From positions 186,001 through 250,000 of the forward strand of contig VGFQ01000002.1 in assembly GCA_016868815.1 (NCBI GenBank): a stretch of 64,000 nucleotides of DNA, in the 5' to 3' direction. Of the stretch, positions 3,061 through 31,989 are shown one piece after another; the stretch's first letter is position 1; each line of letters starts with the position of its first letter. The position numbers and the translations under genes are program-made. The stretch is from Bacteroidota bacterium. GTDB taxonomy: Bacteria > Bacteroidota > Bacteroidia > Chitinophagales > Chitinophagaceae. The notes beneath the pieces are model-generated. The model was not told the origin of the DNA, searched no databases, and saw nothing but the letters and a program-made list of their open reading frames with translations.

Positions 3061-3369
3061 ATTAATATTGGAGATCTGCCTTTCTATTTATTTGATATAT
3101 AGGCAGATGCTTGGCAGGATCTTGATGATGCAGGACTAGCCAGATTCCTGAGGAGCTGAAACTTTTTTTCCAAAGGGAAATGTTTTTTTATATAGTAATG
3201 CTAATTTTATTTTGATTTATGATAAGGTATCGGCAATCTGTAGCGATGAAAGGAGTGTTCCTTCATCAGCAACGATTCCAGGTTTGTTCAAGGAAAACTG
3301 TTTTCCCGATGTAGGATAACAGACGTTTGTCGTGTCGGTATTTGTTGTTCATACATGATATCATGGCTT
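3061..3369. other. AT-rich intergenic region before the secreted metalloprotease gene
   Basis: No gene was recognised here. It holds a possible hairpin just after fmt (listed separately) and AT-rich sequence with runs of T around 3163-3215. I found no clean TAnnTTTG promoter element in it, so the promoter of the downstream gene is not assigned. Confidence 0.5.
3074..3108 (+). terminator. hairpin after fmt, possible terminator
   Basis: An 8-bp perfect stem, ATCTGCCT (3074-3081) with AGGCAGAT (3101-3108), closes a 19-nt AT-rich loop 13 bp after the fmt stop codon. No T-run follows, so an intrinsic terminator is only a possibility; it may be an mRNA-end stabiliser. Confidence 0.35.
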
Positions 3370-14442: not shown

Positions 14443-15498
14443 ATGAGTATACATGAGCTATATATGTCTCGTTGCCTGCAACTGGCACGCCTCGCCCAAG
14501 GGCACGCCGCTCCGAACCCCCAGGTGGGGGCTCTGCTCGTGCATGGGGGGCGGATCATTGGCGAAGGATGGCATCGTAGCTGTGGTGGTCCTCATGCGGA
14601 AGTCGAATGCCTTGAGTCTGTCGCATTACCTGACAGATCCCTCATCCCTTCGTCTACACTTTACGTCTCTTTGGAACCTTGTGCACATCAGGGTCGCACG
14701 CCGCCATGTGCAGACCGGATCATCGCGGAGGGCATCCGACAGGTGGTGATTGGCTGCAGAGATCCGTTTTCGCTTGTCGATGGCCGAGGCATCGAGAGGA
14801 TGGAGGCGGCGGGTGTCCAGGTGACCTGTGGTGTTCTTTCATCAGCTGCCGAAGATTTGATTCGTCGTTTCAGATGTTTTCACCTTCAAAAACGGCCCTA
14901 TGTCATTCTAAAATGGGCACAGACGGCAGATGGCCGGGTGGCAGCAACCGAGGGCCTACCTTGCCGAATATCGTCTAAAGCTACGGATCGTCTGGTGCAT
15001 CTGTGGCGCAGTCAGGAGTCAGCTATCTTCGTTGGCAGCGGTACTGCCCTGACTGATAATCCAATGCTTACATGTCGTATTCCAGGGGGGCGCCATCCTT
15101 TGCGGGTTGTAGTCGATCGTGCATGCGCCCTGCCCTCCCATCTTCATCTATTCGATGGGGAAGCCCCTACCTTGGTTTGTAACGTGAAAAAGGAAGGGGT
15201 AGAAGGGATGGTGTCGTACGCGCGCATTATGGATGAGCCAGACTTGTTGCCGGGACTTCTCCATACTTTATATCAGCGGCAGGTTCAAAGCCTCTTGGTA
15301 GAAGGAGGCGTCCGTTGGATGGAATCTTTCCTGCAGGCAGGTTGCTGGGATGAAGTTAGGCTCATTACGGCTATACATACCCGTTTGCCAGATGGACTAC
15401 CGGGACCGCAATTTCGAATGCAAGGAAATCCACAGCGTTCCCTGTTGTCCGGTCAAGACCGCATCGACATCTTTATGCAATCGGAATCACATGGGTAA
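14443..15498 (+). CDS. ribD: bifunctional riboflavin biosynthesis deaminase/reductase
   Basis: The 351-residue protein performs two consecutive steps of riboflavin synthesis, deamination of the pyrimidine ring and reduction of the ribosyl chain. The N-terminal deaminase half (about residues 1-145) has the zinc motifs HAEVECL and PCAHQGRTPPC. The C-terminal reductase half (about 150-351) begins RPYVILKWAQTADGRVA and includes SLLVEGGVRWMESF. Both halves look complete. The stop codon overlaps the presumed original start of the downstream YigZ-like pseudogene by 8 bp, suggesting that the two were once translationally coupled. Confidence 0.95.
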   Translation: MSIHELYMSRCLQLARLAQGHAAPNPQVGALLVHGGRIIGEGWHRSCGGPHAEVECLESVALPDRSLIPSSTLYVSLEPCAHQGRTPPCADRIIAEGIRQVVIGCRDPFSLVDGRGIERMEAAGVQVTCGVLSSAAEDLIRRFRCFHLQKRPYVILKWAQTADGRVAATEGLPCRISSKATDRLVHLWRSQESAIFVGSGTALTDNPMLTCRIPGGRHPLRVVVDRACALPSHLHLFDGEAPTLVCNVKKEGVEGMVSYARIMDEPDLLPGLLHTLYQRQVQSLLVEGGVRWMESFLQAGCWDEVRLITAIHTRLPDGLPGPQFRMQGNPQRSLLSGQDRIDIFMQSESHG

Positions 15499-16114
15499 TG
15501 AACTTTTTTCATATCTGACCATCGAACAAGACTCGTCTGCGGAATTCGTTAACAGGTAGTCGCTTCATTGCCTTTGTATTCCCCACGATGTCTGAAGTTA
15601 CTTTCCGGGATCGGTTGTGCAGTTTACGCATAGAACATCCCAAAGCAGTTCATCTTTATTATGCCTGGTCTTTCGGGGCGAATGGGCTACGTTGTAAGTC
15701 TTCCGATCGCGGGGAGCCAATCAGGTCTGCTGGAAAATCCATTCTTGGGCAACTCGAGAACCAGGGTATTACGATGCTGCCATCATCGTCGTTCGCTATT
15801 TCGGGAGCACCTTGCTGTCTGTGCCAGGCTTGATTCATGCTTAGCGCAGTGCTGCGGCTCTTTCGCTGCAGATCATCTCAAGGGTAGAAAAATCCGTAGA
15901 AGCCACCTGGCAGCTTGATTTTAATTATACCTTGCTGAATGAAGTTATGCTGCTACTCCAGAGGATCAATTGCAAGATCCTCCATCGAGCGGTGCAGATT
16001 TTCTGCAGACTTGTGATAGGGATTCCTTTACGGAATCTCGACATCTGTCTGCTACAACTGCAGGCGATCTATCGGCTGGAGATTTCTCCGGTCGGACAGC
16101 CTGTTTCGCCATAG
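15491..16114 (+). pseudogene. decayed YigZ/IMPACT (UPF0029) family gene
   Basis: Three reading frames must be joined to recover a YigZ-like protein. Frame 1 from ATG 15491 gives MGNELFSYLTIEQDSSAEFVNR and hits TAG at 15557. The next frame, from 15555, gives GSRFIAFVFPTMSE, then EHPKAVHLYYAWSFG and DRGEPIRSAGKSILGQ. A second shift near 15770 continues with YDAAIIVVRYFGSTLLSVPGL followed by IHA, then an in-frame TAG at 15842 where the family has Tyr, then RSAAALSLQI and a complete C-terminal domain ending at 16114. IMPACT-fold proteins normally read ...DDGEPSGTAG... and ...VVRYFGG..LG..GLI.AY..A..., so the identity is clear. With two frameshifts and a stop, it is a pseudogene. Its last 46 bp overlap the 3' end of the opposite-strand PPTase gene. 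Confidence 0.85.
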
Positions 16115-16719
16115 GCTAATGCCCATGTGATGATGTGATTGTTCCAAAATTTGTGGCCCAGGCGATGGCTGCCTATCGCCGGGAATACTTTCAACACCTT
16201 CATACTGCCAAGGTCTTGGCTGACTTCGACTTCCGTAAAATCAAGGAATAAACCGGTCAATGGGAATTGCATCTTGTAAAATGCCTCTTTGACAGAGAAA
16301 ACCAGGGTGGCCATCTCGGCATCCCCTTGTATCCATGACTGCTCCGACGGTGTCAGTATCCTGTCGTGGAGTTTCGTGCTTACGGCAAATCGTTGCTCAA
16401 TATCAAGTCCTACAGCGCTAAAGTCGTGTTGCCATGCCACCATGGCTCCGGTAAGTCCCTTCGTGTGGCTGATAGACCCCGATACACCTGATGGCCAACA
16501 GGGTTGTCGTTGATGTCCTATCGGAATGGGGGCGACGGGTACTCCAAGGCGTAGAAAGGCTTCTCTGGCGCAATATCTGCCTGTTGCAAATTCCTTGCGC
16601 CTTTTCTCTGCAAAGGATGCGCATTGCAAATACTCCCCACCCAAAAGTGCTGTTTCGTCCTTGGGTTCCTGAGTAAAGGCTGTTTGGATAAAGTCTATTT
16701 CCAGTGTCAACAAACTCAT
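16069..16719 (-). CDS. 4'-phosphopantetheinyl transferase (Sfp/EntD type)
   Basis: The 216-residue protein transfers phosphopantetheine from CoA to the serine of carrier domains. Key motifs are present: RRKEFATGRYCAREA (EntD-like N-terminal motif, near residue 40), SGSISHTKGLTGAMV, the Mg-binding AVGLDIEQR (near residue 105) and the catalytic VFSVKEAFYK (near residue 146). It is divergent from the NRPS gene across 267 bp. The obvious inference is that it activates the three thiolation domains of that synthetase, although it could also serve other carrier proteins. It is EntD-like in motif layout, slightly shorter than Sfp. The 3' end overlaps the YigZ pseudogene. Confidence 0.93.
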   Translation of the reverse strand: MSLLTLEIDFIQTAFTQEPKDETALLGGEYLQCASFAEKRRKEFATGRYCAREAFLRLGVPVAPIPIGHQRQPCWPSGVSGSISHTKGLTGAMVAWQHDFSAVGLDIEQRFAVSTKLHDRILTPSEQSWIQGDAEMATLVFSVKEAFYKMQFPLTGLFLDFTEVEVSQDLGSMKVLKVFPAIGSHRLGHKFWNNHIITWALAYGETGCPTGEISSR

Positions 16720-16986
16720 TGAGAGTGGGTTACAGGTATAAAGATCTATATAGTCGAATTAGTATGCAATCCCATTTTTTGCTATCATCCAATCTTTTAC
16801 TATTTTTAGAGCTACTAGATTGTGCCCAATTTTTGGGTGACCATTATCCGCCAGCTGCTTTTGCTTCAATCCGTATCCCAGAATATCCACTCACCCATCC
16901 AATCATCGTCTGAACAGTTTCGGATGTAGTTACTGATGTATCAGTTCTGCAGTCCTCTCCTTATCAGATGGTACTTATGAATTCCA
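16720..16986. other. divergent intergenic region between PPTase and NRPS genes
   Basis: The 267 bp must hold both promoters. It is AT-rich around 16740-16820. I found no clean TAnnTTTG element on either strand. No gene was recognised. Confidence 0.5.
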
Positions 16987-19900
16987 ATGTCAGCGCACAG
17001 GATGCGAGTGGCATCGCGCTGTACCAAAGATATTTCTCGTACCCTATTTGTATCGTTGATGAAAAAAGGATTTTTGGAATTAGATGGCTGGCAAAAGTCA
17101 GCATCCAGGCTTTTGCAGGATGGACTGATGGGTTCAGTAGGTGCTTCAAAGAAGAAATCATCAACTCAGCGCAACCGTAATGTCTCATATCGTCCTCTTG
17201 CCGCCAAAGGTCATCGAAAAGGGCAAGCTAAGGTTTTAGAACAAAAGCAGCGTTATCCCGCTACCCTCAGCCAACAAGCATATTGGTATGCATACCAATC
17301 TAATCCCAACGATGCGTCGAATCACACGCACATCTGTGCGCAGATCGAAGGAGATCTAGTATATAGCGTGTTGCATGCTGCCTTTCAAAGACTCGTCAAC
17401 CTCCAGGCAGCACTGCGTACACGGTTTGAAGAATCCGATGGCACCCTTTGGCAATATCTTGGCGCTGAAGATGATTTTCAATTGGAAGTCATCGATGGCT
17501 CACATATGGCATGTGCTCAGACAGCAACGAATGTCCATTGTATACTGGAGGAATATCTGTGTAGGCCATTTGAATTGGAGCGACAGCACCCCATCCGGGC
17601 ACTGTTGCTGCAGCTGACGGCTCAAAAGCACATTCTCCTCATCGTCATACATCATATACAGTCAGATGGCATGTCGAATCTTCAGGTGGCCAGACAATTG
17701 TCTCAGCACTATCGGGAATGCCTCCATCAAGGTCCTTTAAACCCACAGCCCTGCATCATGGATGCCATGCTGTGGGGGGAAGAAGAGCTTGAATATCTGC
17801 AATCAGCTGCTGCCCAACATTCCATTGTTGCTTGGAAAGAGATGCTTTCCGACTTCGCGCCAATGGTGGATTGGCCATTTGATCATGCAAACTCCATGGC
17901 TTCTACAGGCACTGTTCTGCCTCATGTATTATCGGTGCGCCCTGATCCATCGCTCATGGCAATGGTGGCGACAGCCTTTGGTCCTGGGGTTACTGTCTGG
18001 AACAGATTTCAGCTGGCTACCTACTGCATGCTACTTAGATATCTTACAGGCTGCGCACATATCACGATCGGAGTGCCTATCCACGGACGTCGCCACGATC
18101 GGGAAAAGCAAGTAGTTGGACTTCGGATGAAGGTGATGCCTCTCTGTATAAAAGTGGATGATACTACTTCCGTTCAAGAGGTCATGGCGATCATTGACCG
18201 TACCAGCAAGCAGGCTTATAGGCATCATCAATTCCCCCTCGGTAAGGTTTTTGAAATAACTGGAAAGGGTAAAAATAGTTTTTCTTCAAGGCCTTATCAT
18301 AGCCTGTTGAATCAGAAGGAAGAGGCAGCACATCATATTGACCTCCCTGATATTCGTTGCACACCCTACCGGATCTTTCGGCAGGGTGTAAAGGCAGATA
18401 TCGTCATCTCTCTGTCAACCAGACTACTTCCAGAAACGGAAATGGCCGCGCCACTGGAGCTGCAATATGACCCATCTGTTTTTTCTGATGTAGAAATCAG
18501 TCGAATGGTCGATCGCTGGCTGCATATACAGCAGCAAAGCGCGAGGCATACGACCCTTCCATTCCGTTCTTTCAATTGCTTGCTACCGGGTGAATGGCCA
18601 CAGCTTGAATTATTATCCGGTAGCTGTGTCAAGATCGAATATCCGATAGGCACCTTGCATGAGTTTTTCCTACAGCAAGCAATCCGCACTCCATCGGCAT
18701 CTGCACTCATCTCGAAAGATGGCTGTCTTTCGTATGGACAACTGGATGCATATGCATCTACGATCACAGATCTTCTATTCGAACAGGGGCATGTGGAGGG
18801 GATGGCTGTTGCCGTCATAGGAGGTCGTACTACACATCTGGTTGCTGCATTGCTTGGAGTACTTCAGTCGGGCTCGCCCTTTGTACCCATCGATGCAGCA
18901 CTCCCTGCAGAAAGAATCGCCCTCCTCCTCCGACAGGTAGATGTACACCTATGCCTCGTAGATCCAACGGCAGGTTTGAATTTGACGTGCCAAGGGGTGA
19001 AGATGATTCCCATCCCAGCTTTCCCTCCATCTACAGTTCCTGTCTCTAAAGACATCCGGCGTACAGTGCCGCTTGAATCACCGGCCTATATTCTTTTTAC
19101 CTCAGGATCTACCGGAACGCCCAAAGGCGCCATGGTTAGCCATCATGCCATCACCAACCGCCTTCATTCCATGATAGGGGTCCTTGGCTTCGGTCCAACA
19201 GATCGTAGCCTGTTCCGGTCGTCTCCTAGCTTTGATGTGTCGCTACCTGAAATCTTTCTGCCTTTATTCACAGGCGGTAGCGTCGTAATGCCTACGACTG
19301 CCGATGCGCCTTTTCCAGAAGAGCTCTCCCCCCTTATTGCTAAGTTTGGCATCACCTATCTGCATTTGGTGCCCTCTGCACTTCGCGCATTTCTCGACCA
19401 TCCGGTGTCTTCTGCTGCCAATAACTCACTTCGTGTCATCTGGTCAGGCGGAGAGGCTCTGACCAGAGAATTGGTTCGCCGTTGCCGCAGCTCATGGCGG
19501 GCACGTCTTATTCACGGCTATGGCCCAACTGAGGCGGCAGTTGGTGTTACCTACTACGATTGTACAGATGATTCGGAAGCCACTATGCCCAATCCCCCCA
19601 TTGGCCGCCCAGTTCCCAATGTGTCGGTTTGGGTGATGGATGACGCAGCAAGGCCATTGGCGCCAGGCATGCGTGGAGAAATATGGATCGGCGGGGTGCA
19701 GACCGGCTTGGGATATGTCAACGATGCGGTTTTAACCGCCTCCAAATTTCTGTGCCACCCTCTGGGGTCTGGTGCTGACGTTCGCTTATATCGTACTGGC
19801 GACCTCGGTCGTTTTCGTCCGGATGGTAATCTTGAATGTCTTGGCCGCATCGATGACCAGGTGAAAATACTAGGGCATCGCGTGGAACCTGCTGAAGTCG

Positions 19901-22900
19901 AGTCGGTGCTGTATGAATGTGTAGGAGTTCGTACGGCACAGGTTCTTTCCGAAATAGATGATGCCGGCATACAGCGCTTGCGGGCCTGGGTGCATGGGGA
20001 GCATTTGGAAGAACCAAAACTTTATGCAAGGCTTTCCCGATGCCTGCCTCCATATATGCTGCCGGTCCGTATCCATGTATTAGATCAATGGCCCCTGACG
20101 CTTCAGGGCAAGACCGACCGGAAGCAGCTCTGGGCGCAGTCTGCCGCTGATCAAGATAAGGTGGAACATGGGCTACCCCTTTCCACGGCAACTGAACACT
20201 GGCTCGCTGACCTTTGGTCCGAGTTGTTACGCATACCAATCCAGCGGCGCGATGTCGACTTCTTTCGCCTTGGAGGACACTCCCTGCTTGCCCTGCGCAT
20301 GATGGGCCGCATTCGGCAAGAACTCGAGATCAACCTTACCCTGATGGAGTGCTATGCAGCGCCAACCCTTGACGGCCTGGCGGCTCGCCTCGACGTCCTG
20401 AAATATGCAGCTCCATGTCCTGTTGCCATCGAATATGTATTACCCGAACAGTGCCACCAGCCAGCACCCATGAGTACTGGTCAGAAAAGGATGTGGATGC
20501 TGCAACAGCTCCTAGTACAACCTGCGGCATATCATGTAACCCGAATCTTTTCTATCCCCTCTACCCACACTTCAACAGATCTAAAATCTGTACTACAAAC
20601 CATGGGGCAGCGGCATGGTATTCTCCGAACCCGCCTCTGGCAGGATGGTGAACAGCTATGGCAGCAGGAGATCCCCTTCGAGGAATGGCAATTAGACTGG
20701 AAAGAAATATCCGCAGCTAGTGAAGACGATCTGTGTTCTTTCATGCTTCAAGAAAGGATCCTTCCTTTTGAACTCTCCACCCGTAGCGGATGGAGGGCTC
20801 GATGGATGCATGCCTCCGGACAAGACCCACAGCTACTTATTGTCTTTCACCATGCCCTCGTCGATGAATGGTCCATGAACCTGTTCCACAGTGAGTTTTC
20901 TCTGCTGGTCGCTGGCACCAACCCGACAGATCTGCCCAGACTTACCTTCCGGTACATAGACTTTGCCCGTTGGCAGCAACAAGCCCTTACTCCAGGCCGC
21001 AAAGAAACGCTAGAAGAGTACTGGCAGCAGCGCTTCGATCAAATGGGCGATACCGCACAACTATTGTCTGACGGACACTTAGGACTTTCCGGCCCCGGAT
21101 ACAGCGGCGTCGTCACCTGCAATCTCGACCACCTGCAGGAATGCATGAAGGACTGTTCCCGAAGATTGGGCGTGAGCGGCTTTTCTTCATGGATGGCCGT
21201 CTGGCAAATCCTCATCGCCCGCTTGAGTGCAGACAGAGAAGTGCTTGTCGCAATACCTGTATCCGAACGGACACAGCCTGAATGGCTCTCCATCCTCGGC
21301 CTATGCCTTAACACGCTCCCCATCCGTGCATCGGTTATGCCAGAGGATACATTCAGCACCTTTTGCAGAGACAGCCATGACCATCTCCAACGTGACCTCG
21401 CCCATGGTCAATTGCCTTATGAAGATATTATCCGACAGGGTAATATGACATATGGTATCGATCATCGCGGGCTGCCGCAGGCCATGTTCATCCTGCATGC
21501 TGAACACGAGTGGAGCGAGGAAAAAGCCTTGCCCAACGCGCCAGGCACCCGGCAGGCAACCTTCGCCAAAAATCCACTTGCCCTGCACCTCATCGAGCGC
21601 AACGGACATTGCGAGGCATCTCTCGTATATGATACCAGTCTCTTTTTGGAGACAACCGCAGCTGCGCTCCTCCATCGCTTCGAGGCCGTCGCCACCCAAG
21701 TCCTCGCACAGCCAGATATCCACATCGCCGACATTGACATTCTCTTGCCCGGGGAGTGGGAACGACTTCTAGAATACTCCGGTCGGCATCACGTTGTCCC
21801 CTATCCGAAGACCACCCTGCAGGAGATCTTCCGCCAGACGGCGGAGCGATTCTCCGGCCGGCCTGCCGTCATCTCCGCAGATGGCAGTGAGACGAGCTAT
21901 GCTGATCTGCAGCAGCAGGTGATGCACATAGCAGGCTACCTGCGTAGCCTCGGGATAGAGAAAGAAGACGTCGTAGCCATCCACCTTCAACGCTCCCCCG
22001 CCTTGCTCGCTTCCATGCTCGGTGTTCTCAAGGCTGGCGGCGCGTTCCTGCTCCTCGAGCCTAGCCTGCCAATGGACAGGCTCGGCAGCATGATCGAGCA
22101 GGCGCGGGTACGTTTGGTCCTATCTGAAGAAGGCATGCCGTCGATCCAAGGGTTCGAACAACATACTCATCTCTATGGCAAGGCCTTGGCAGAACAGCTT
22201 CCCTGGACATTTGATGAGTGCCTGCCGCCCGATCCTGAAGCCCTGGCCTATGTCATGTTCACCTCCGGCTCTACCGGAAAGCCGAAGGGGGCCATGGTCA
22301 CGCATCAGAATCTCATCAACCGATTATCGTATAGCCGCGAGGCGCTGGGCTTTGGCATCGAGGACCGTGCCCTGCAAAAATCGCCCTTGAGCTTTGACGT
22401 ATGCCTCACTGAGCTGCTGCTGCCGATGTTCTCCGGTGGGGTTGTGGCAATACCTGCGCCCGGCTGCGACTTCAACCTGGTGCTGCTGGCAGACCAGGTC
22501 GTATCGCTTAAAGCCTCCTATCTGCATTTTGTACCGGGCATGCTGAAAGCCTTTCTAGAGGTGCAGGGGATAGAAAAAGTCAATGGAATACTGAAAATCA
22601 TCCGCTGCGGTGGAGAGTCGCTTTCTGAAGACCTCATGCAGCAGTGCCTGGCCACCCTCGATGCGCGGCTCTACCAGAGCTATGGACCGGCCGAGACGGC
22701 TGTGGCCGTAACCCTCTGGCAATGCCTCAACGGCCATGGCCATCCGAAGCCTCCGATCGGTAGGCCTAACCCCAACGTGGACATCCTTCTCATGAATCCT
22801 CAAGGCAAGCCCGTCCCCCCCGGGATGCCCGGTGAGCTCTGGATCGGCGGCGCACAGACCGGATACGGCTACATCCACAACGAAGTGGAGACTCGAAAGC

Positions 22901-25900
22901 GGTTTGTAGAAGACCCCATCAAGCCCGACTCGGGCAGAAGGTATTACCGCAGTGGCGACCTCGCCCAGTTCCTTCCCGATGGTAACCTCCTGTTCCTCGG
23001 ACGAATCGATGATCAGGTCAAAGTCCGGGGTGTTCGTATCGAACTCGGAGATGTCTCCTCTGCCCTCCTCCGCTGTACTTTCGTCCAGGATGCCGTCGTG
23101 CTCTCAGAACCCGACGGACAAGGGTCCCAGCGACTCCGCGCCTGGGTGACTGTATCAGAACACGCCGACGGCAGCGAGATCACCCTCCGATCCGCACTCC
23201 TCCAGCTTCTGCCAACCTATATGGCGCCCTTCCGCATCCATGTGGTCGACAAGATCCCATTGACACCTCATGGAAAGACTAACCACCGCGCCCTCAAGGC
23301 ACTCGCCGCCGTAGACGCTGAAGAGGATATCGCCCGACTGCCACTCACTACCCCAACAGAAATCGCCTTAGCCGGCATCTGGTCTGATCTGCTCAACAAA
23401 GATGTGCGTCACCGCGATGCCGACTTCTTCCGGCTCGGCGGGCATTCCCTCCTCGCCCTGAAGATGTCCGGATCAGTGACGCTTATTTGGGGGGTAGAAC
23501 TGCAACTTTTGGACATCTATGCTCAAACGAAGTTATTCGCCTTAGCAGCTCATATAGATGCAGAAGCTTTATGTGGGAATGCTGAAAGCAGAACAATCAA
23601 AGTACGCAGCAAGTCAATCGCTCCCATGAGTTTTGTTCAGCGCAGGCTTTGGCTGTTGCATCACTTTATGACAAGCCCTTCTGCGCACCATGTGATTCGT
23701 CTCCTGCGTATTCCAAACGATCTGGATAGCTTCATCGTACGCAAGACGCTTCGGTTGCTGGGCTTACGTCATGGCATACTGAGGACTCGGCTGTTTGAGC
23801 AGGATGGTTCTTTTTGGCAGGAGGAATTACCTGTTGAAGGCTGGTCCTTGCCCTGGAAAGAATGGACTCCTGAAATGGGAATGCCATCTGACCTCCTGCA
23901 AGTAGAAAGGGAGGTTCCTTTTGATCTGTCTAAGGGAACCTTATGGAGGGCTTTGTGGCTGAAAGAAGGCGGTGATCAGAAATTATTCCTCGTTTTTCAT
24001 CATGCATTGACCGATGAATGGTCGATGGGTCTTTTCATTCGAGAGTTTTGGTTATTGGTCAAGGGCAGAGCCCACCCGGACGATTTACCCCCCATTTTGG
24101 CTGGCTATGCTGACTATGCCAATTGGCAGCATCAAGCACTCATGGGTGGTGCAAGGCAACGGATGGAGGAATTTTGGCGCAAACGGATGCAGGGCGTGGA
24201 AAATGCGGCACGTATTATCCCAGATTTTTTTGTGGGGGAGGCCAACCTGGCCTGGCAAGCCCGGGTACAACAAGTATTGACGCCTGAACTCAGCATGTCT
24301 GTGAGCAGCCTCGCAAGGGATTATAGTGTCAGCCCATTCTTGCTTTTGCTCGGTGTATGGAATTTGTTGTTGGCCCGTATGTCATCCAATCGTGATATCT
24401 TGATCGGAACTCCAGTATCGCAAAGGCATCGACCTGAATGGCAGAGGATGATGGGCTTATGTACGAGTATTATACCCATTCGACTTCAGGTGTGTACTCA
24501 GTTAAGTTTCAAGGAACATATAGGCCGCCTTAAAGAAGAGATGGAGCAATCATTAGCCCATGCCGCCCTGCCATTTTCAGATATCTCTGCCATGGCTTCA
24601 TCTGGCGGCAGTGAACCTTTGTATCCTATCCTTCAAATGCTTTTTCTATGTGTAGGCATCGATGGATGTAAAGAGGATCGCGAGGGCTTACTCGACACGT
24701 CTGAGATAGCGCGGTACGCATCGGGTGATTTTCAGATAGTGACAGACCTGGGTGCCGATTCTTGGAAGATCAGTTTGTTGTATGATAAAGCACGATTCGA
24801 AGCAGGGAGAATGTCTTCCTGGTTAGCGAGGTATGTCGAACTGATTTCAGTTGCCTGTCGTCAACCCCTTGTATCAATGGATGCACTCGATTGGCTTGGG
24901 GGAGAGGAGAAACTGCGATTGCTGAACATGGGTATGGGGGCATCCCATCCTCTGCCCCGACACGCCACCATTGATGTCCTGTTTGATGCGATGGCCCGCC
25001 AGCATCCATCATCGCTGGCTGTTGAGCATGCAGGTTATCGGTATAGTTACCGTGAGATCTATACCCTTTCGCAGGCATGGGCTGCGCACTTCGTCTTCAA
25101 GCTTGGACTGCAGCCAGGAGAAGTAGTTGCCCTTTTACTTCCTTCAGGTATTGAGCATATCGTTTTGCTATTGGCCGTTTGGAAGTCAGGTGGTGTAGTC
25201 GTACCTGTCGATCCAGCTTTGCCCGCAGAGCGGATACGTTACATGCTGACCGATAGCGGTTGTAGGTATGTATTGGCCGAAGTCCAACACCGGCAGCATT
25301 TGCTCGATGCGAATATTTGGGTGGATGCGAGCCTCCATCCGATTGGTACTGGAAGTTCATTGCCCACCCTGCAGATGCATGCGGAGGCACCCGCCTACCT
25401 CATGTATACCTCAGGTTCCACGGGTCATCCAAAAGGGATATTCAACACGCACCAGGGCTTTGTGAATACTTTGCTGTCCGTCTCCCGAATCCTGGAGATG
25501 AGATCCGCTGACAGGGTAGCCCAGTTCTCAACACCTTCTTTTGACGTGTCTCTCTTTGAAATATGCTTGGCATTCTTCAATGGTGCGGCGGTGGTGATTC
25601 CAAAGCGTAAAGAGCTTTCCATGCTGGCTTCATTCATTGAGGGCAGTCATATTTCTGTTGCTATGTTGACGCCCATGGTCATCAGTTCTTTATCGACAAA
25701 GACGATCGCTCGGCTTAGAGCCCTCATGACCGGAGGCGAAGAAGCGAGACCAAAAGATATAGAGCGGTTGGCTAGCCTCACATCTATATTTAATATCTAT
25801 GGCACGACGGAGGTCTGCGTATGGTCGTCCATCCATCCGGTAGGACCTTGTTGGGACACCTCTCGTCGTATTTCTATCGGCCGCCCTCTAGACAATGTAT

Positions 25901-27789
25901 TCGCGTGTATCTTGGACGATGAGCAGCAGTTGGTCCCCTGGGGTGGGATCGGTGAGCTCTGTGTCAGCAGCCCGGGTATTACAAACGGCTATCATCACAA
26001 CCCTTCGCTCAGCCAGGAGCGCTTCATCCCTAATCCCTTTCATACAGACTCCCTACTGTATCGAACAGGTGACCTTGCCTGTTGGGACAGGGATGGTAAT
26101 CTCTTTTATCACGGCAGGATGGACGGTCAGGTTAAGATCCATGGATTTCGGGTAGAGACGGCAGAGGTAGCCAGCGCCCTGGAAGCCATCCACGGCATTT
26201 TGCAGGCCACGGTCATGTATCGGGCTGGCACGGGGCCCGAAGCAGGCCTGATTGCTTTTTTGGTGACCGTCGATATTTTTTCCCTGGATGAGACCATGCT
26301 TCGATATCGGCTGGCCATGCATTTGCCGGGCCATATGCTTCCGGTCAGGTTTCACCGGATGTATAACATTCCTCTGAATCACAACGGGAAAGTCGATAAG
26401 TCGGTCCTGCAGGCCCTCGACGATCTCTATTTGCTCAAGAGGTCGGAACAAGCTGCTCTGGGGCCCGACAGCCATGGCGAGACAGCCACAGAAAAAAGGC
26501 TCTCTGAGATTTGGAGAGATGTCTTGGGGATAGATGCCTTTAGCCGGGAGGATAGCTTTTTCTCTATAGGTGGCAGTTCGCTGCAGATGATACGACTCAT
26601 CGATATGATAGAGGCAGCGTGGGGGGTAGCGATAGACCCTTCCAGCGTATACATCCATCCAACGTTGCGCTCCATGTCCCGCCTGCTGGATGAGCAGCTG
26701 CCCGATCAGCCGACCTCAGCGGTCACTGATCCCATCATGCCGGTCATTGCGTGGGATGCAGGGAAAGGCCGCCATGTCTTCGCACTGGTTGGTGGGGCTG
26801 GCAGCATGGAGGAGTTCACCAAGTACCATCGCATCGGGCAACTTTTAGGCGATGGCTGGCGGGTTCACATTTTGCCTGACCCTGATACCTCCAGGGGGTA
26901 TTTTCCGAGGGCCGATGTCGCTTCACTGGCTGCCATGTATGCAGATATTGTACGGCCATATGCCCACCGTGAGAAGATATGGCTTTTGGGGGATTGTATC
27001 GGTGGAATTGATGCGTTTGCAGTTGCCTGTGCATTGCAATCTCATGGCATCTCGAATCTCGGACTCATCATCATGGATGTATCAGCCCCTGCTGCCATCG
27101 ACCTACCAGCTCCCAAAGGCCAGGCTGCGAAGCTCATATTTACAGGATTGCCAGAGGATTCAGGCCCTTTGAAAGAATGGATATATCGCCTGTATTTTTC
27201 GATGGCGTCGAAAAGACTTCTTAGGGAATGGTTTTACATCGCTCCCCAAAGCAAGCTTCAGGTGTTCCGGATGGCAGTCGCCCTGGACCTATTCGACCCG
27301 CTGAACTACATCCAAAGGTTTCCCGAGGCCGGCCCTCAAGCGGAGGATGCTTTTGATCATTACCTTTCTCAGGGGTGGCGGGTCGGTGCATGGCCTTCCC
27401 TTACCTTCAACGCCTATCGGTATAAAAAGGTAATGCGGTCTTTCAGGCCTGGCGAGGAAGAGCCTATATTACATGCTTTGTTTACTGGGTTATGTTCTAG
27501 AAGGGTACGGCAGAAAATCCTATCTGTCAGTCGACAGAGTACATATCATGCAGACCTGATGGTGGCACGTACCTACCTAAGGCTTGAACAGTACAAGCCC
27601 AGCAAGTTAAATGGCGACCTGCATCTGGTGATGTCCAGCCAGATCTATCAACGTGGGTCAGACTTGGGATGGTCTCGGTATGTAAGCGGGCATGTTTACC
27701 GTCATCGTGTCGAAGGAGACCATCGTTCCTACCTTCGGGAATGGCTGGGGACGACCGCGGCAACCCTCAGAGCCATTCTACAGTCCTAG
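16987..27789 (+). CDS. trimodular non-ribosomal peptide synthetase, C-A-T-C-A-T-C-A-T-TE
   Basis: This single 3,600-residue synthetase has ten domains. C1 spans about 89-530 (HHIQSDG, His222). A1 is about 556-1045 (FTSGSTGTPKG near 704). T1 is about 1060-1135 (LGGHSL, Ser1099). C2 has HHALVDE (His1288). A2 has TSGSTGKPKG at 1759. T2 carries Ser2154. C3 has HHALTDE (His2338). A3 has TSGSTGHPKG at 2808. T3 has IGGSSLQ (Ser3198). The TE runs from about 3250 to 3600. Every A domain keeps its A10 lysine (QGKTD, HGKTN, NGKVD). Starting with a C domain suggests acylation of the first residue or an upstream partner elsewhere. No epimerase, methyltransferase or MbtH partner was seen. Residues 1-88 match nothing I know and the start is uncertain (Met25 and Met48 are alternatives). 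The product is probably a tripeptide-based lipopeptide, by inference only. Confidence 0.95.
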   Translation: MSAHRMRVASRCTKDISRTLFVSLMKKGFLELDGWQKSASRLLQDGLMGSVGASKKKSSTQRNRNVSYRPLAAKGHRKGQAKVLEQKQRYPATLSQQAYWYAYQSNPNDASNHTHICAQIEGDLVYSVLHAAFQRLVNLQAALRTRFEESDGTLWQYLGAEDDFQLEVIDGSHMACAQTATNVHCILEEYLCRPFELERQHPIRALLLQLTAQKHILLIVIHHIQSDGMSNLQVARQLSQHYRECLHQGPLNPQPCIMDAMLWGEEELEYLQSAAAQHSIVAWKEMLSDFAPMVDWPFDHANSMASTGTVLPHVLSVRPDPSLMAMVATAFGPGVTVWNRFQLATYCMLLRYLTGCAHITIGVPIHGRRHDREKQVVGLRMKVMPLCIKVDDTTSVQEVMAIIDRTSKQAYRHHQFPLGKVFEITGKGKNSFSSRPYHSLLNQKEEAAHHIDLPDIRCTPYRIFRQGVKADIVISLSTRLLPETEMAAPLELQYDPSVFSDVEISRMVDRWLHIQQQSARHTTLPFRSFNCLLPGEWPQLELLSGSCVKIEYPIGTLHEFFLQQAIRTPSASALISKDGCLSYGQLDAYASTITDLLFEQGHVEGMAVAVIGGRTTHLVAALLGVLQSGSPFVPIDAALPAERIALLLRQVDVHLCLVDPTAGLNLTCQGVKMIPIPAFPPSTVPVSKDIRRTVPLESPAYILFTSGSTGTPKGAMVSHHAITNRLHSMIGVLGFGPTDRSLFRSSPSFDVSLPEIFLPLFTGGSVVMPTTADAPFPEELSPLIAKFGITYLHLVPSALRAFLDHPVSSAANNSLRVIWSGGEALTRELVRRCRSSWRARLIHGYGPTEAAVGVTYYDCTDDSEATMPNPPIGRPVPNVSVWVMDDAARPLAPGMRGEIWIGGVQTGLGYVNDAVLTASKFLCHPLGSGADVRLYRTGDLGRFRPDGNLECLGRIDDQVKILGHRVEPAEVESVLYECVGVRTAQVLSEIDDAGIQRLRAWVHGEHLEEPKLYARLSRCLPPYMLPVRIHVLDQWPLTLQGKTDRKQLWAQSAADQDKVEHGLPLSTATEHWLADLWSELLRIPIQRRDVDFFRLGGHSLLALRMMGRIRQELEINLTLMECYAAPTLDGLAARLDVLKYAAPCPVAIEYVLPEQCHQPAPMSTGQKRMWMLQQLLVQPAAYHVTRIFSIPSTHTSTDLKSVLQTMGQRHGILRTRLWQDGEQLWQQEIPFEEWQLDWKEISAASEDDLCSFMLQERILPFELSTRSGWRARWMHASGQDPQLLIVFHHALVDEWSMNLFHSEFSLLVAGTNPTDLPRLTFRYIDFARWQQQALTPGRKETLEEYWQQRFDQMGDTAQLLSDGHLGLSGPGYSGVVTCNLDHLQECMKDCSRRLGVSGFSSWMAVWQILIARLSADREVLVAIPVSERTQPEWLSILGLCLNTLPIRASVMPEDTFSTFCRDSHDHLQRDLAHGQLPYEDIIRQGNMTYGIDHRGLPQAMFILHAEHEWSEEKALPNAPGTRQATFAKNPLALHLIERNGHCEASLVYDTSLFLETTAAALLHRFEAVATQVLAQPDIHIADIDILLPGEWERLLEYSGRHHVVPYPKTTLQEIFRQTAERFSGRPAVISADGSETSYADLQQQVMHIAGYLRSLGIEKEDVVAIHLQRSPALLASMLGVLKAGGAFLLLEPSLPMDRLGSMIEQARVRLVLSEEGMPSIQGFEQHTHLYGKALAEQLPWTFDECLPPDPEALAYVMFTSGSTGKPKGAMVTHQNLINRLSYSREALGFGIEDRALQKSPLSFDVCLTELLLPMFSGGVVAIPAPGCDFNLVLLADQVVSLKASYLHFVPGMLKAFLEVQGIEKVNGILKIIRCGGESLSEDLMQQCLATLDARLYQSYGPAETAVAVTLWQCLNGHGHPKPPIGRPNPNVDILLMNPQGKPVPPGMPGELWIGGAQTGYGYIHNEVETRKRFVEDPIKPDSGRRYYRSGDLAQFLPDGNLLFLGRIDDQVKVRGVRIELGDVSSALLRCTFVQDAVVLSEPDGQGSQRLRAWVTVSEHADGSEITLRSALLQLLPTYMAPFRIHVVDKIPLTPHGKTNHRALKALAAVDAEEDIARLPLTTPTEIALAGIWSDLLNKDVRHRDADFFRLGGHSLLALKMSGSVTLIWGVELQLLDIYAQTKLFALAAHIDAEALCGNAESRTIKVRSKSIAPMSFVQRRLWLLHHFMTSPSAHHVIRLLRIPNDLDSFIVRKTLRLLGLRHGILRTRLFEQDGSFWQEELPVEGWSLPWKEWTPEMGMPSDLLQVEREVPFDLSKGTLWRALWLKEGGDQKLFLVFHHALTDEWSMGLFIREFWLLVKGRAHPDDLPPILAGYADYANWQHQALMGGARQRMEEFWRKRMQGVENAARIIPDFFVGEANLAWQARVQQVLTPELSMSVSSLARDYSVSPFLLLLGVWNLLLARMSSNRDILIGTPVSQRHRPEWQRMMGLCTSIIPIRLQVCTQLSFKEHIGRLKEEMEQSLAHAALPFSDISAMASSGGSEPLYPILQMLFLCVGIDGCKEDREGLLDTSEIARYASGDFQIVTDLGADSWKISLLYDKARFEAGRMSSWLARYVELISVACRQPLVSMDALDWLGGEEKLRLLNMGMGASHPLPRHATIDVLFDAMARQHPSSLAVEHAGYRYSYREIYTLSQAWAAHFVFKLGLQPGEVVALLLPSGIEHIVLLLAVWKSGGVVVPVDPALPAERIRYMLTDSGCRYVLAEVQHRQHLLDANIWVDASLHPIGTGSSLPTLQMHAEAPAYLMYTSGSTGHPKGIFNTHQGFVNTLLSVSRILEMRSADRVAQFSTPSFDVSLFEICLAFFNGAAVVIPKRKELSMLASFIEGSHISVAMLTPMVISSLSTKTIARLRALMTGGEEARPKDIERLASLTSIFNIYGTTEVCVWSSIHPVGPCWDTSRRISIGRPLDNVFACILDDEQQLVPWGGIGELCVSSPGITNGYHHNPSLSQERFIPNPFHTDSLLYRTGDLACWDRDGNLFYHGRMDGQVKIHGFRVETAEVASALEAIHGILQATVMYRAGTGPEAGLIAFLVTVDIFSLDETMLRYRLAMHLPGHMLPVRFHRMYNIPLNHNGKVDKSVLQALDDLYLLKRSEQAALGPDSHGETATEKRLSEIWRDVLGIDAFSREDSFFSIGGSSLQMIRLIDMIEAAWGVAIDPSSVYIHPTLRSMSRLLDEQLPDQPTSAVTDPIMPVIAWDAGKGRHVFALVGGAGSMEEFTKYHRIGQLLGDGWRVHILPDPDTSRGYFPRADVASLAAMYADIVRPYAHREKIWLLGDCIGGIDAFAVACALQSHGISNLGLIIMDVSAPAAIDLPAPKGQAAKLIFTGLPEDSGPLKEWIYRLYFSMASKRLLREWFYIAPQSKLQVFRMAVALDLFDPLNYIQRFPEAGPQAEDAFDHYLSQGWRVGAWPSLTFNAYRYKKVMRSFRPGEEEPILHALFTGLCSRRVRQKILSVSRQSTYHADLMVARTYLRLEQYKPSKLNGDLHLVMSSQIYQRGSDLGWSRYVSGHVYRHRVEGDHRSYLREWLGTTAATLRAILQS
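26740..27786 (+). other. NRPS thioesterase domain with Cys nucleophile and C-terminal insertion
   Basis: The domain starts with RHVFALVGGAGSMEEF. The nucleophile elbow reads LLGDCIGG, with Cys3337 in place of the usual Ser of GxSxG. An acidic candidate follows in LIIMDVSAP and a terminal histidine in EGDHRSYL (His3579), so a complete Cys/Asp/His triad can be proposed. Between them lies about 200 residues, longer than in ordinary type I thioesterases. That stretch includes FDPLNYIQRFPEA and HYLSQGWRVGAWPS (about 3436-3480), a motif-like block discussed in the findings. The domain presumably releases or cyclises the peptide. Confidence 0.8.
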
Positions 27790-27821: not shown

Positions 27822-29033
27822 TCAGGCAACTGCTTGCTTCACCAAGTCGGCCGCTTCGCTGAGGAGGATGGCACTCTGCACCTGAAGGCCGCTTTCATCG
27901 ATGAGCCGCTTGGCCTCTGCCGCATTGGTTCCTTGCAAGCGTACGATGATCGGGATATCTATATTCCCCATGTTCCGGTAGGCCTCTATGACGCCGGAGG
28001 CCACCCGGTCGCAGCGGACAATGCCCCCAAAGATGTTGATGAGGATGGCTTTGACATTGGGATCTTTGAGGATGATCTTGAAGCCTGCCTCAACAGTCTG
28101 TGCATTCGCAGTGCCGCCCACATCTAAAAAATTGGCTGGCTCACCACCACTCAGCTTGATCATATCCATGGTGGCCATGGCGAGTCCTGCGCCATTCACC
28201 ATGCAGCCCACGTTGCCATCGAGTTTGACAAAATTCAGGTTGTACTGGCCGGCTTCCACTTCTGTGGGATCTTCCTCGCTGAGGTCGCGCATGGAGGCCA
28301 GGTCTGGGTGCTTTGTCAAAGCATTCTCATCCAGTTTCATCTTGCAGTCGACAGCGACGATCTTGTCGTCTGACGCCTTGAAGAGTGGATTGATCTCGAC
28401 CATGGCGCAGTCAAGCCCAACGTAGGCTTTATAAACATTGGTTACAAAGCGAACCATATTTTTGAATGATTCTCCGCTGAGGCCCAGGTTGAAGGCGATC
28501 TTCCTGGCCTGGAAGGGTAGCAGTCCGCCAGCGGGGTGCACCCACTCGCGGTAGATCTTTTCAGGTGTGTTATGAGCGACGTCCTCTATATTCATGCCGC
28601 CTTCTGTACTGTACATGATGACATTGCGACCTATGCCGCGATCGAGTAGGATCGATAGGTAGAACTCCTTGCGCTCGGAAGGGCCGTCGTAATACATGTC
28701 TTGGGCGACGAGTACCTTATTCACCACTTTGCCCGATGGTCCTGTCTGCAAGGTCACCAGTGTGCCTCCCAAGATCTTCTGGGTAAAGACGGTGGCTTCC
28801 TCAAGATTTTTCGCCACTTTCACGCCATTGATGCCTGTCTCCCGTACGGTTCCTTTCCCTCTGCCGCCCGCATGAATTTGGGCTTTTACGACGGCAAAGC
28901 TGCTCCCGAACTGGGTCTTGATCTGCCGATAGGCCTCTTCCGCTTCATGCACATTGCTGCAAGCAAAACCCTCCTGTACAGGCACCTGATATTTTTTGAG
29001 GAGCTCTTTGGCTTGGTATTCATGGAGATTCAT
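27822..29033 (-). CDS. sucC: succinyl-CoA ligase (ADP-forming) beta subunit
   Basis: The 403-residue protein is the beta subunit of the TCA-cycle enzyme that interconverts succinyl-CoA and succinate with substrate-level phosphorylation. It begins [19 protein letters not shown], the textbook SucC N-terminus, so I take ATG 29033 rather than the upstream ATG at 29120. The ATP-grasp domain contains [12 protein letters not shown]. The C-terminal CoA-ligase domain has [30 protein letters not shown] and [11 protein letters not shown]. It is complete. The alpha subunit gene sucD is not adjacent. It is convergent with the NRPS gene and divergent from the nucleoside phosphorylase gene. Confidence 0.97.
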
Positions 29034-29126
29034 GGACGTGATTTGAGGCGAAATTAAGTATAGAAGGCGATACCTCCATACCTGCCAGATGTGCATCCAT
29101 CCCGAAAAGGCCTTGCACAAAGGGCA

Positions 29127-29155: not shown

Positions 29156-29974
29156 ATGACGGCATTCGAGAAGGTCATGGCGGCAGCGGCCTACATTCGG
29201 GATCGTTCCCGCCTGCAGCCGCCCTCTGGTGTCGTGCTGGGGAGCGGCTTGGCGAATTTTCGACAGTCCATATTTATCGAAATAGAAGTACCCTACGTGG
29301 AGATTCCTCATTTTCCACATGCTACCGTACAGGGCCACGGGGGTTCTTTGATCCTTGGATATGTCGCTGGCCGTCCGATTGCTGCCCTCTCGGGCAGATT
29401 GCATTTCTATGAAGGGCACTCACCCGCTGACGTCATCTTTCCTATCCGGGTGTTGGGTGCCCTAGGCGTCCGTACATTGCTGGTTTCGAATGCGGCAGGC
29501 GGTGTCAATCCTTACTTTTCAGTGGGAGACATCATGCTTATCACAGACCATATCAGTCTGGCAACCATAAACCCCCTGATAGGTCCCAATGAGGAGGCAT
29601 TTGGTGCCCGCTTTCCAGACATGAGCGAGCCATACTCCCGAGAGTTGATCCAATTGGCGGAGGACCTAGCACCGACCCTGGGCCTGACGCTTCACAAAGG
29701 GGTCTATTTTGGGGTGACCGGCCCTACCTATGAAACGCGGGCCGAATATCGTATGATCCGGCTGCTGGGGGCAGACGCCGTGGGCATGAGCACCGTGCAG
29801 GAAACCATCGCCGCCGTCCAATTGGGGATGCGCGTTTTCGCCCTCAGCGTGATCACAGATATCGGCATTCGCGAAGAGGAAAATCTGATCACACATGAAG
29901 AAGTACTGCAGGCCGCACAGCTTGCTGAGCCACGGATGGCAGCACTCTTCACTGCGCTCATTGAACGAATTTGA
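29156..29974 (+). CDS. purine nucleoside phosphorylase (trimeric, PNP class)
   Basis: This 272-residue protein cleaves purine nucleosides with phosphate in the salvage pathway. Motifs of the trimeric PNP/MTAP family are clear: GVVLGSGLANF (phosphate loop), PHFPHATVQGHGG, GRLHFYEGH, SNAAGGVNPYFSVGDIMLITDHI and GPTYETRAEYRM with GADAVGMSTVQETIAA. The base-binding position reads VITD (Asp) where mammalian 6-oxopurine-specific PNPs have VISN/VITN (Asn243), and the preceding block has VQET where most have VPEV. Substrate preference is therefore open. The stop codon overlaps the TTG start of the porin gene (TTGA), implying coupled expression. Confidence 0.93.
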   Translation: MTAFEKVMAAAAYIRDRSRLQPPSGVVLGSGLANFRQSIFIEIEVPYVEIPHFPHATVQGHGGSLILGYVAGRPIAALSGRLHFYEGHSPADVIFPIRVLGALGVRTLLVSNAAGGVNPYFSVGDIMLITDHISLATINPLIGPNEEAFGARFPDMSEPYSRELIQLAEDLAPTLGLTLHKGVYFGVTGPTYETRAEYRMIRLLGADAVGMSTVQETIAAVQLGMRVFALSVITDIGIREEENLITHEEVLQAAQLAEPRMAALFTALIERI

Positions 29975-31989
29975 ACCGGCATTCTTTTTTCATATCAGCC
30001 ATCCTCCTCGCCTGCTGCCTGCCAGCCTTGGCGCAGGTGCCTATGCGGGGGATGCCTCGCTTTGGTGGCGGGGCCGGCGGCCGTGCCGGAGGCATGAGCG
30101 GCGATTCACTCAGTTTTGAGAAACGGGACTTCCGGCAGGATTCTGTCACCCTCATCTTCCGCTATCTGGACACTGCTCGCTTCAGTACGCCAGACACCAG
30201 TATTGACGATTTCTTCGAACGGGTGCCCGTAAAGCCCCACCTCTTACACCTCGGTAATACTGGGAATGCGACCCGGTCCATCTTGTTTTCCCCCCACTGG
30301 AAGGCAGGGTGGGACCCAGGCTTTCATGCGTTTGACCCCTTCGCATTCACGCTGGCAGAAACCCGTTTCTTTAACACGACGAAGCCCTTCACCGAGATGA
30401 CATACCTCATCGGGTCGAAGCTGGAACAGCAAGTGGGCATCTTGCACACCCAGAATATCCAGCCCGACTGGAACGCTTCGGTGCAATTTCGGCTGGTGAA
30501 TTCGCCCGGACTATACAATTCTCAGAATACCAACCATTCCAATATACGATTCAATACCTTCTACACAAGCCGCGACAAGCGGTATGGGGTCTTCCTCATC
30601 ACCATCAAGAATGGCCTGCAGTCGGCTGAGAACGGAGGCATTGAGAGCGATACCTTCATCGTCAATCAGAACCAGGCCTTCACCCGTGACCGTTTCAATA
30701 TCCCCACCCGAATGGCAGATAGTGTCTTCACGACCCGCAATTTCTTCACTGTCAAACTCAATACTGGAAACCGCTACGAGCAAAGCCGCTGGCTTTTACG
30801 GCAGCAATATGACTTTGGGAAAAAAGATTCCGTGGTCACGGATAGTTCTGTCACGCGATTCTTCCTTCCCAGGCTTCGGGCTGAGCATACCCTTCGATTC
30901 GACCGACATAGCTACCGATTCTTCGACATACAGGCAGGTAATGACAGCAGCTACTACCAGGAAAGGTATCAATTGCGGCGTGTGCCTGACACTTTGGAGT
31001 ATCAGGATACCTGGCAAGTGCTTTCAAACGATGTCTCGCTGATACAATTCCCCGACCCGCGCAACCCACTACAGTTCCTAAAGGCAGGGGCTGCCTGGGA
31101 GTCGTATCAGGCTGACTTACTCGGAAGGGACAACCGATTTCAGGCACTATCTCTTCACGGGGAGTACAGAAACCGGACCCGCAACCGGAAATGGGATATG
31201 TTGTTGTCCGGCACGTTCCACATTGCCGGCAGGTTTGCTGGCGACTATTGGGCGGATGCCCGCATCCGAACCCAACTCAGCCGCCGGATAGGATTTCTGG
31301 AGCTCGGATTTCGCAACGCCAACCGAAGCCCCTCCATGCTCTTCCAGGGGATAACATCTTTCCCGCTGCCAAAACCTCCCGGCGTCGCACGCGAGAATAA
31401 CACTGAGTTCTCTGCCACGTTCGACCTGCCATACATTCGGACCCGTCTGGCCGGCGAGTACATGCTACTATCGAACTACACTTATTTCAGCAATTTCAAC
31501 CAAGCTCGGCAGCATGCACCCCTTTTCAACATCCTCCGATTGGGGATCAACCGGGAGACACGCCTCTCCAGGCACTGGCTTTGGCGATTGGATGCCTATG
31601 TGCAGCTCGTCGCCGCAGATGCCCCGGTCAACCTACCGCTGCTGTATACCCGAAACCGGATCGCCTATGAGGGGCGTTTCTACCGAAACCTGCAGCTGGC
31701 CACCGGACTGGATATCCGGTATTGCACACCTTTTCGTTCCGACGATTATTCGCCCGTGCTGGGGCAGTTCTTTCTACAGGAGGGCCGCATCTTTTCCAAC
31801 CTGCCCGATGTGGCAGCCTACCTCAACTTCCGGATCCGAAACTTCACGGCGTTCACTCGTGTCGAAAACCTAAATAGCGCCACCTTCCGATACGGATTCG
31901 GCTTCAAGAACCCCAACTTTGCAGCACCTTCCTATCCAATGCAGGATATGATCATGAGACTCGGCATCTTCTGGATCTTCGTCAACTGA
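29971..31989 (+). CDS. putative outer-membrane porin (Porin_10-like)
   Basis: The 672-residue protein has a signal peptide (SFFISAILLACCLPALAQ), a Gly/Arg-rich linker (GGGAGGRAGG), then a long beta-barrel-like sequence of alternating aromatic and polar strands, ending in FGFKNPNFAAPSYPMQDM and the aromatic end IFWIFVN, as expected of outer-membrane barrels. It matches the Bacteroidota putative porin family I know as Porin_10, which often sits next to a PNP gene. The start appears to be TTG at 29971, overlapping the PNP stop by 4 bp; no closer ATG precedes the signal peptide. Substrate is unknown; a nucleoside-related role is suggested only by the neighbour. Confidence 0.85.
   Translation: MNRHSFFISAILLACCLPALAQVPMRGMPRFGGGAGGRAGGMSGDSLSFEKRDFRQDSVTLIFRYLDTARFSTPDTSIDDFFERVPVKPHLLHLGNTGNATRSILFSPHWKAGWDPGFHAFDPFAFTLAETRFFNTTKPFTEMTYLIGSKLEQQVGILHTQNIQPDWNASVQFRLVNSPGLYNSQNTNHSNIRFNTFYTSRDKRYGVFLITIKNGLQSAENGGIESDTFIVNQNQAFTRDRFNIPTRMADSVFTTRNFFTVKLNTGNRYEQSRWLLRQQYDFGKKDSVVTDSSVTRFFLPRLRAEHTLRFDRHSYRFFDIQAGNDSSYYQERYQLRRVPDTLEYQDTWQVLSNDVSLIQFPDPRNPLQFLKAGAAWESYQADLLGRDNRFQALSLHGEYRNRTRNRKWDMLLSGTFHIAGRFAGDYWADARIRTQLSRRIGFLELGFRNANRSPSMLFQGITSFPLPKPPGVARENNTEFSATFDLPYIRTRLAGEYMLLSNYTYFSNFNQARQHAPLFNILRLGINRETRLSRHWLWRLDAYVQLVAADAPVNLPLLYTRNRIAYEGRFYRNLQLATGLDIRYCTPFRSDDYSPVLGQFFLQEGRIFSNLPDVAAYLNFRIRNFTAFTRVENLNSATFRYGFGFKNPNFAAPSYPMQDMIMRLGIFWIFVN

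Follow-up and report, generated by a model that had tools for sequence, protein, structure and literature searches.

A three-module nonribosomal peptide synthetase locus in Chitinophagaceae with a cysteine thioesterase whose lid carries a glycosyltransferase-associated repeat

Introduction

The release of products from nonribosomal peptide synthetases (NRPSs) is partly decided by the lids of their thioesterase (TE) domains. Solved NRPS TE lids span 54–101 residues according to the available part of PMC11298585, which also describes AB3403 of Acinetobacter baumannii (PDB 4zxh), a four-domain, one-module NRPS whose TE has a Cys nucleophile and a triad Asp at position I. The TEs of ObiF1 and SulM, associated with a beta-lactone and a beta-lactam, respectively, have a Cys nucleophile and an unusual lid, with the Asp at position II (available parts of PMC6668435 and PMC11298585). 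Bovienimides, as presented in the available part of PMC8868522, are lipotripeptide NRPS products. In the enterobactin system, EntF combines a C-A-T module with a terminal TE and is paired with a dedicated Sfp/EntD-type transferase, EntD.

Here we describe a locus in a 64,000-nucleotide stretch of DNA, called the window below, from a Chitinophagaceae genome (assembly GCA_016868815.1, contig VGFQ01000002.1, positions 186,001–250,000), whose bacterium, to judge by record labels, probably lived in lake water. Its predicted product, an N-acyl tripeptide, would fall in the same class as the bovienimides, but the host belongs to the Bacteroidota and the TE is of unusual make. As in EntF and EntD, C-A-T organization with a terminal TE is accompanied by a dedicated Sfp/EntD-type transferase, whereas the synthetase has three modules and the locus contains no aryl-acid genes. 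The TE shares both its nucleophile and its Asp position with AB3403, in a protein of three modules rather than one. The distinguishing feature of the locus is a Cys TE enlarged by a repeat; the remainder is in outline an ordinary compact NRPS. We consider it probable, with considerable reservation, that the locus encodes a lipopeptide assembly line made of a single protein, which some members of a genus retain at a fixed position in the chromosome. With only two genes, it is a compact candidate for a lipopeptide pathway in uncultured, small-genome Bacteroidota, from which few such products are known to our knowledge.

Results and Discussion

Organization of the locus

The synthetase gene (16987–27789, + strand) is an open frame of 3600 codons, 10.8 kb in length, in which the annotated start, itself uncertain, lies about 84 residues ahead of the first condensation domain. 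Pfam detects three Condensation, three AMP-binding, and three PP-binding domains and a C-terminal Thioesterase, and profile mapping gives the order C-A-T three times followed by TE, the repeated domains and terminal TE characteristic of a type I NRPS. A divergent intergenic region of 267 bases (16720–16986), shared by both genes and a putative promoter region, separates it from an Sfp/EntD-type 4'-phosphopantetheinyl transferase of 216 residues (16069–16719, − strand) having both the 4PPT_N (PF17837, 5.7e-22) and ACPS (PF01648, 1.9e-15) domains of that type; the NCBIfam models PptT, Npt, and EntD also match, each below its own cut-off. This transferase would load phosphopantetheine onto the three carrier domains of the synthetase.

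To the left lie a broken yigZ gene (UPF0029; about 15485–16093, + strand), found as pieces in two frames by tblastn with ORFs of relatives, and ribD (14443–15498, + strand; Pfam RibD_C and deaminase, TIGR00326), which is the left flank of the conserved locus also in genomes G028, G005, G018, and G003. To the right lie sucC (27822–29120, − strand; Pfam) and, as in G005 and G018, purine-nucleoside phosphorylase and Porin_10 genes (29156–31989, + strand). Between yigZ and sucC there is no ORF of at least 90 residues other than the transferase, the synthetase, and ORFs inside the synthetase, and MbtH is matched in none of 41 genomes of the genus (control genomes: 2 of 14). An earlier note on this DNA had read from it a 10.8 kb gene with the same domain order, a divergent Sfp/EntD-type transferase, a YigZ pseudogene and sucC as flanks, no tailoring enzyme or MbtH protein, and a synthetase self-contained with its own activator, all of which agrees with the annotation given here; the Cys nucleophile, the enlarged lid, and the recurrence in relatives go beyond it.

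A foreign island was considered and set aside, as the GC content of the synthetase in 2 kb bins (47.8–55.7%) resembles that of the rest of the window (48.9–57.7%); a megablast search against plasmids, run as a check on the same point, gave no match. Decay of the synthetase gene was set aside on account of its open frame and kept motifs, in contrast to the neighboring yigZ. The yigZ position, broken in the window genome, is occupied by an open frame of 205–223 residues in four relatives, and the two such ORFs tested (L083 and L081) match UPF0029/PF01205. Elsewhere in the window, a 1380-residue protein (3355–7497, + strand) has as its sole match a weak one, below cut-off, to a C-terminal secretion sorting domain.

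Recurrence in related genomes

The synthetase had been described in the earlier note as lone, and within its genome (2,847,907 bases in 33 contigs, 92% complete) this stands, since all three Condensation matches lie within this protein and it is the only NRPS found. It is not, however, a lone oddity, because relatives, where the earlier note had recommended looking, carry the locus at the corresponding chromosomal position; it was found in a few of the 41 genus genomes. An alignment of T3-TE matches six of these 41 at 1e-10, and five (G000, G028, G029, G005, and G018) hold the TE, G009 matching through its carrier domain only. The order of ribD, transferase, and synthetase start seen in the window is kept in G028, G005, and G018, and the TE end adjoins sucC in G028 (L002), G005 (L011), G018 (L082), and G029 (L015). 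Transferase matches above 40% identity occur in G000, G028, G018, and G005 and, in part, in G003, where ribD and a yigZ ORF are followed at the contig end by a partial match with one stop; at a threshold of 0.001 the transferase is matched in 10 of the 41 genomes in all, and no transferase was found in G029, which is 88% complete. In 11 stretches from genomes without a TE match, other ORFs adjoin sucC; because of these ORFs, and because ribD falls outside the fetched stretches, no clean empty site was seen.

Beyond the genus, 57 of 396 genomes of the order match T3-TE at 1e-10, but among the order matches listed none outside the window genome passes model position 297 of 434, and among 395 genomes of the phylum the window's own is the sole match past 1e-22. 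These two samples overlap, and at most four candidates were scored per genome, so that a further such TE in an NRPS-rich genome could be missed; same-family genomes include some of 8 Mb with many first-look candidates.

Specificity codes and conservation of the product

The adenylation domains A1 (18631–20151), A2 (21787–23316), and A3 (24949–26430), all on the + strand and placed by profile mapping, carry the ten-residue codes DVPHISGVGK, DVTHICSVAK, and DVFMLTIVWK, respectively, in a motif-based reading against the GrsA positions. All three codes start with D and finish with K, the amino-acid anchors Asp235 and Lys517 in GrsA numbering. Profile mapping likewise places the carrier domains T1 (20185–20400), T2 (23350–23571), and T3 (26482–26700) and, in agreement with the tree described below, the condensation domains C2 (20449–21771, HHALVDE) and C3 (23605–24924, HHALTDE), which would append the amino acids selected by A2 and A3 (all + strand). 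The codes were not found in the literature searched, and no amino acids are assigned. A reading of A3 as Cys-type, from its likeness to a Cys code, was too weak to use, and the literature search for it found no paper.

In G028 three pieces (L079, L013, and L002), left unjoined here, account for the same three modules, with codes DVPHLCGVG?, DVTHICSVAK, and DVFMLTIVWK; two are identical to those of the window and the third agrees at 6 of 8 variable positions. G005 has DVPHICGVGK adjoining the transferase and DVFMLTIVWK adjoining sucC. Over five domain comparisons, with the first D and last K omitted, the codes agree at 37 of 40 positions in domains of 47–63% identity. Against the identity of its own surrounding region the code signal of each domain is modest (binomial p = 0.064, 0.026, 0.020, 0.41, and 0.037), but the agreement of 37 of 40 specificity residues makes it likely that the product, too, is conserved across the loci of these relatives.

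Relatives also bear on whether the pathway is split, with this gene as one component and further NRPS genes in the unassembled portion of the genome. The assembly, at 92% completeness, could lack such genes, and additional NRPS contigs, some of them differing in code, do occur in G005, G028, and G029 (in G028, L022, with the code DLYFISAGAK, and L014). Nevertheless, the gene starts with an initiating C domain and ends with a TE, only three C domains occur across all 33 contigs, and in G028 the flank-linked ends together with L013 make up the three modules, although the contig joins are uncertain. We therefore regard a split pathway as improbable and favor the single-protein assembly line.

Both C2 and C3 read HHxxxDE rather than HHxxxDG. 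The same change is present throughout their eight-domain clade in the tree and in one C domain of G009 (L020), and the five initiating C domains found in the genus retain DG. The available part of PMC1894796 lists the Gly of this motif as important for catalysis in VibH, though it is not invariant.

The first condensation domain and acyl supply

C1 (17239–18609, + strand; HHIQSDG) is a putative starter condensation domain by profile mapping and its position in a tree built from 50 C and C-like domains, a set that included EntF and held no proven fatty-acyl starter domain. In this tree C1 and its counterparts in G028, G018, and G005 share a clade with the leading C domain of L021 (support 100/98). 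The clade, whose five members are all initiating C domains from this genus, stands apart from C2 and C3, as expected of a starter, and apart from the C domain of EntF, which groups elsewhere. L021 is flagged as a long branch. Its C domain sits behind a separate 614-residue A-T protein of FadD-like ligase-carrier type, matched by a FadD7-family model at 392.7 bits and by an amino-acid adenylation model at 174.5, both below cut-off. This loading protein, 90% identical between G005 and G029, belongs to a second NRPS system (L021, G005:C544; G029:C527; L016, G029:C241), which in L016 has a TE with three lid repeats. Used as a query at 1e-20, the loading protein matches 24 of the 41 genus genomes, some of them through NRPS A domains.

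The grouping of C1 with an initiating C domain behind a protein resembling a fatty-acyl ligase fused to a carrier is the main ground for proposing an acyl start, and it makes an N-acyl tripeptide the best reading of the product. A weaker line of evidence is that C1, and not C2, also hits PDB entries for CDA synthetase I, PvdL, and EntF at 1e-6, whose C domains are starter types. C1 would couple an acyl group, probably fatty acyl, to the A1-activated amino acid, with the donor, a CoA or carrier thioester, probably supplied by the general acyl ligases of the cell. The earlier note had expected an acyl or peptidyl donor from elsewhere; our reading retains the acyl alternative, and no upstream peptide donor was seen, this being the only NRPS found in the genome. 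The phylogenetic check that it recommended for C1 placed the domain apart from C2 and C3 and beside that of L021 but away from EntF. Two residues of C1 do not follow the starter pattern.

Those residues are among the reasons for considering that C1 may be vestigial, or may use a donor other than an acyl group, so that a free amino acid starts at A1 and a tripeptide without an acyl group, plain or cyclic, is made. The locus has no loading protein, and in the window genome the search for a ligase-carrier protein returned a general FadD-like match of 33% identity and the synthetase's own three A domains, none of them a clear candidate. The best solved-structure matches of C1 are Txo1 and Txo2, which are ordinary elongation modules. 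The HHxxxDG Asp is present in C1 and so, as read by eye, is a Trp close to motif C4, two positions that starter C domains do not conserve (available part of PMC1894796). Against this, HHIQ[ST]DG is intact in all four C1 copies at the locus (window, L079, L080, and L081), and this, together with the grouping with the L021 domain, suggests that C1 is in use. We accordingly judge a start with a free amino acid to be unlikely, while giving it more weight than any other alternative discussed here, and continue with the N-acyl tripeptide.

The thioesterase core

The TE domain (26704–27786, + strand) has, by motif, a Cys nucleophile in GDCIGG (Cys 3337), an Asp 27 residues later (Asp 3364), and, at +242, a His in the motif GDH (His 3579). 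The Cys, the Asp at +27, and GDH are present in all seven TEs of the family whose sequence spans the site, a count that omits a dead sister, L014, and L018, which ends before the site. In the proposed pathway the acyl-tripeptide would be accepted on Cys 3337, activated by His 3579 and Asp 3364, and released under the enlarged lid by hydrolysis or cyclization.

In sequence searches against solved structures, the TE matches NocB best, at a weak 0.00044. Together with codes absent from the literature searched, this makes the undescribed metabolite of the earlier note plausible but does not establish it. A model of T3-TE is of low confidence (mean pLDDT 61.5, five alignment rows); the 50 fold matches listed for it are all thioesterases or TE-containing proteins with TM-scores on the query of 0.31–0.36, and AB3403, at 0.36, is the best by E-value.

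A Cys nucleophile together with an unusual lid, as in ObiF1 and SulM (available parts of PMC6668435 and PMC11298585), could mean that the TE forms a strained ring, either a beta-lactone or a beta-lactam. By sequence, however, the triad Asp in all seven TEs occupies position I and not position II, the site after beta7 that marks the ObiF/SulM type, and the family alignment has no conserved Asp about 30 residues ahead of the His. The nucleophile itself is weak evidence for ring formation, since the 19 control TE loci of the order comprise 4 with Cys, 14 with Ser, and 1 unclear; for the same reason Cys as such was set aside as the new point of this locus. Strained-ring formation is thus very unlikely, and hydrolysis or cyclization under the enlarged lid remains our proposal for release. 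Three order NRPS thioesterases (L057, L061, and L063) have GMCFSN or GTCFSN in place of GxSxGG.

A glycosyltransferase-associated repeat in the lid

Between the Asp and the last strand, the window TE contains a repeat unit of 42 residues (27292–27417, + strand), FDPLNYIQRFPEAGPQAEDAFDHYLSQGWRVGAWPSLTFNAY, located by profile search and conforming to the consensus FDxxWYxxxxPDxxxxxxDPxxHYxxxGWxEGRxPSPxF. A profile seeded with the units of L016 and L017 only, the window being excluded (Z = 1000), finds the window TE at 1.4e-5, six units in the Azospirillum glycosyltransferase WP_051658831.1 at 7.3e-70, and a Bradyrhizobium GH99-like protein at 1e-34. The same search over the ORFs of the 19 control loci and 180 shuffles gave no domain E-value below 1. 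The window TE has one unit, and strong units number three in L016 (G029:C241) and five in L017, the scores of the latter two not being independent because most of their units belong to the seed; weak units were found in L011 (0.00022, with a wider seed only) and L018 (0.014, with the first seed).

The distance from nucleophile to His grows with these units, from 241–243 residues in five TEs to 471 in L016 and 634 in L017, compared with 136–180 residues in the 13 of 19 control loci where it could be measured (in 3 of the 13 a second His candidate was present, and the His of the GxH motif was taken). In the low-confidence model, the beta6–beta7 stretch of the window TE comprises about 180 residues, compared with 54–101 for the lids of solved NRPS TEs, and holds the repeat. 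These enzymes form a natural series of TEs in which the Cys-Asp-His core stays constant and the lid is enlarged by whole repeats, which offers a direct test of the role of the lid.

Across the 41 genus genomes the repeat gives 13 matches at 0.001, in four genomes, all of them in these NRPS TE frames, including L014; of 395 phylum genomes, with at most 18 candidates scored in each, four, the window genome among them, are positive at 1e-5. Among the genomes searched here, the repeat-enlarged TE was seen in one genus only. Sequence searches with the repeat against Pfam, NCBIfam, and PDB gave no match. Plasmids hold 75 records matching the L017 repeats; among the 20 matches listed, the annotation reads glycosyltransferase or GH99-like in 13, and the remainder have other annotation or none. 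The FDxxWY...HYxxxGWxEGRxP repeat, shared by profile with the Azospirillum protein, is hosted elsewhere by glycosyltransferases, GH99-like, and other proteins, whereas in the window family its host is the lid of an NRPS TE. A literature search of narrow scope found no published report of enlarged NRPS TE lids, and the available part of PMC10681181, on NRPSs of activated sludge, contains nothing on this TE family.

An unusual release step is hinted at by the enlargement of the lid with a repeat otherwise seen chiefly in proteins of glycosyltransferase and GH99-like type. Because whole repeats are added to the lid, and their family is common among sugar-handling enzymes, glycan docking or transfer is thinkable: the repeats might bind glycan, and the TE might hand the acyl-tripeptide from the Cys to a sugar or surface polysaccharide, with a reach that grows with repeat number. 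We hold this to be a long shot; if true, the assembly line would act as an acyltransferase that decorates glycans, in which acceptor reach tracks one, three, or five repeats.

The dead sister L014 (G028:C277, 1896–3599, − strand) is a C-TE protein that has lost both the nucleophile (GEGLGA) and GDH and retains the lid repeat.
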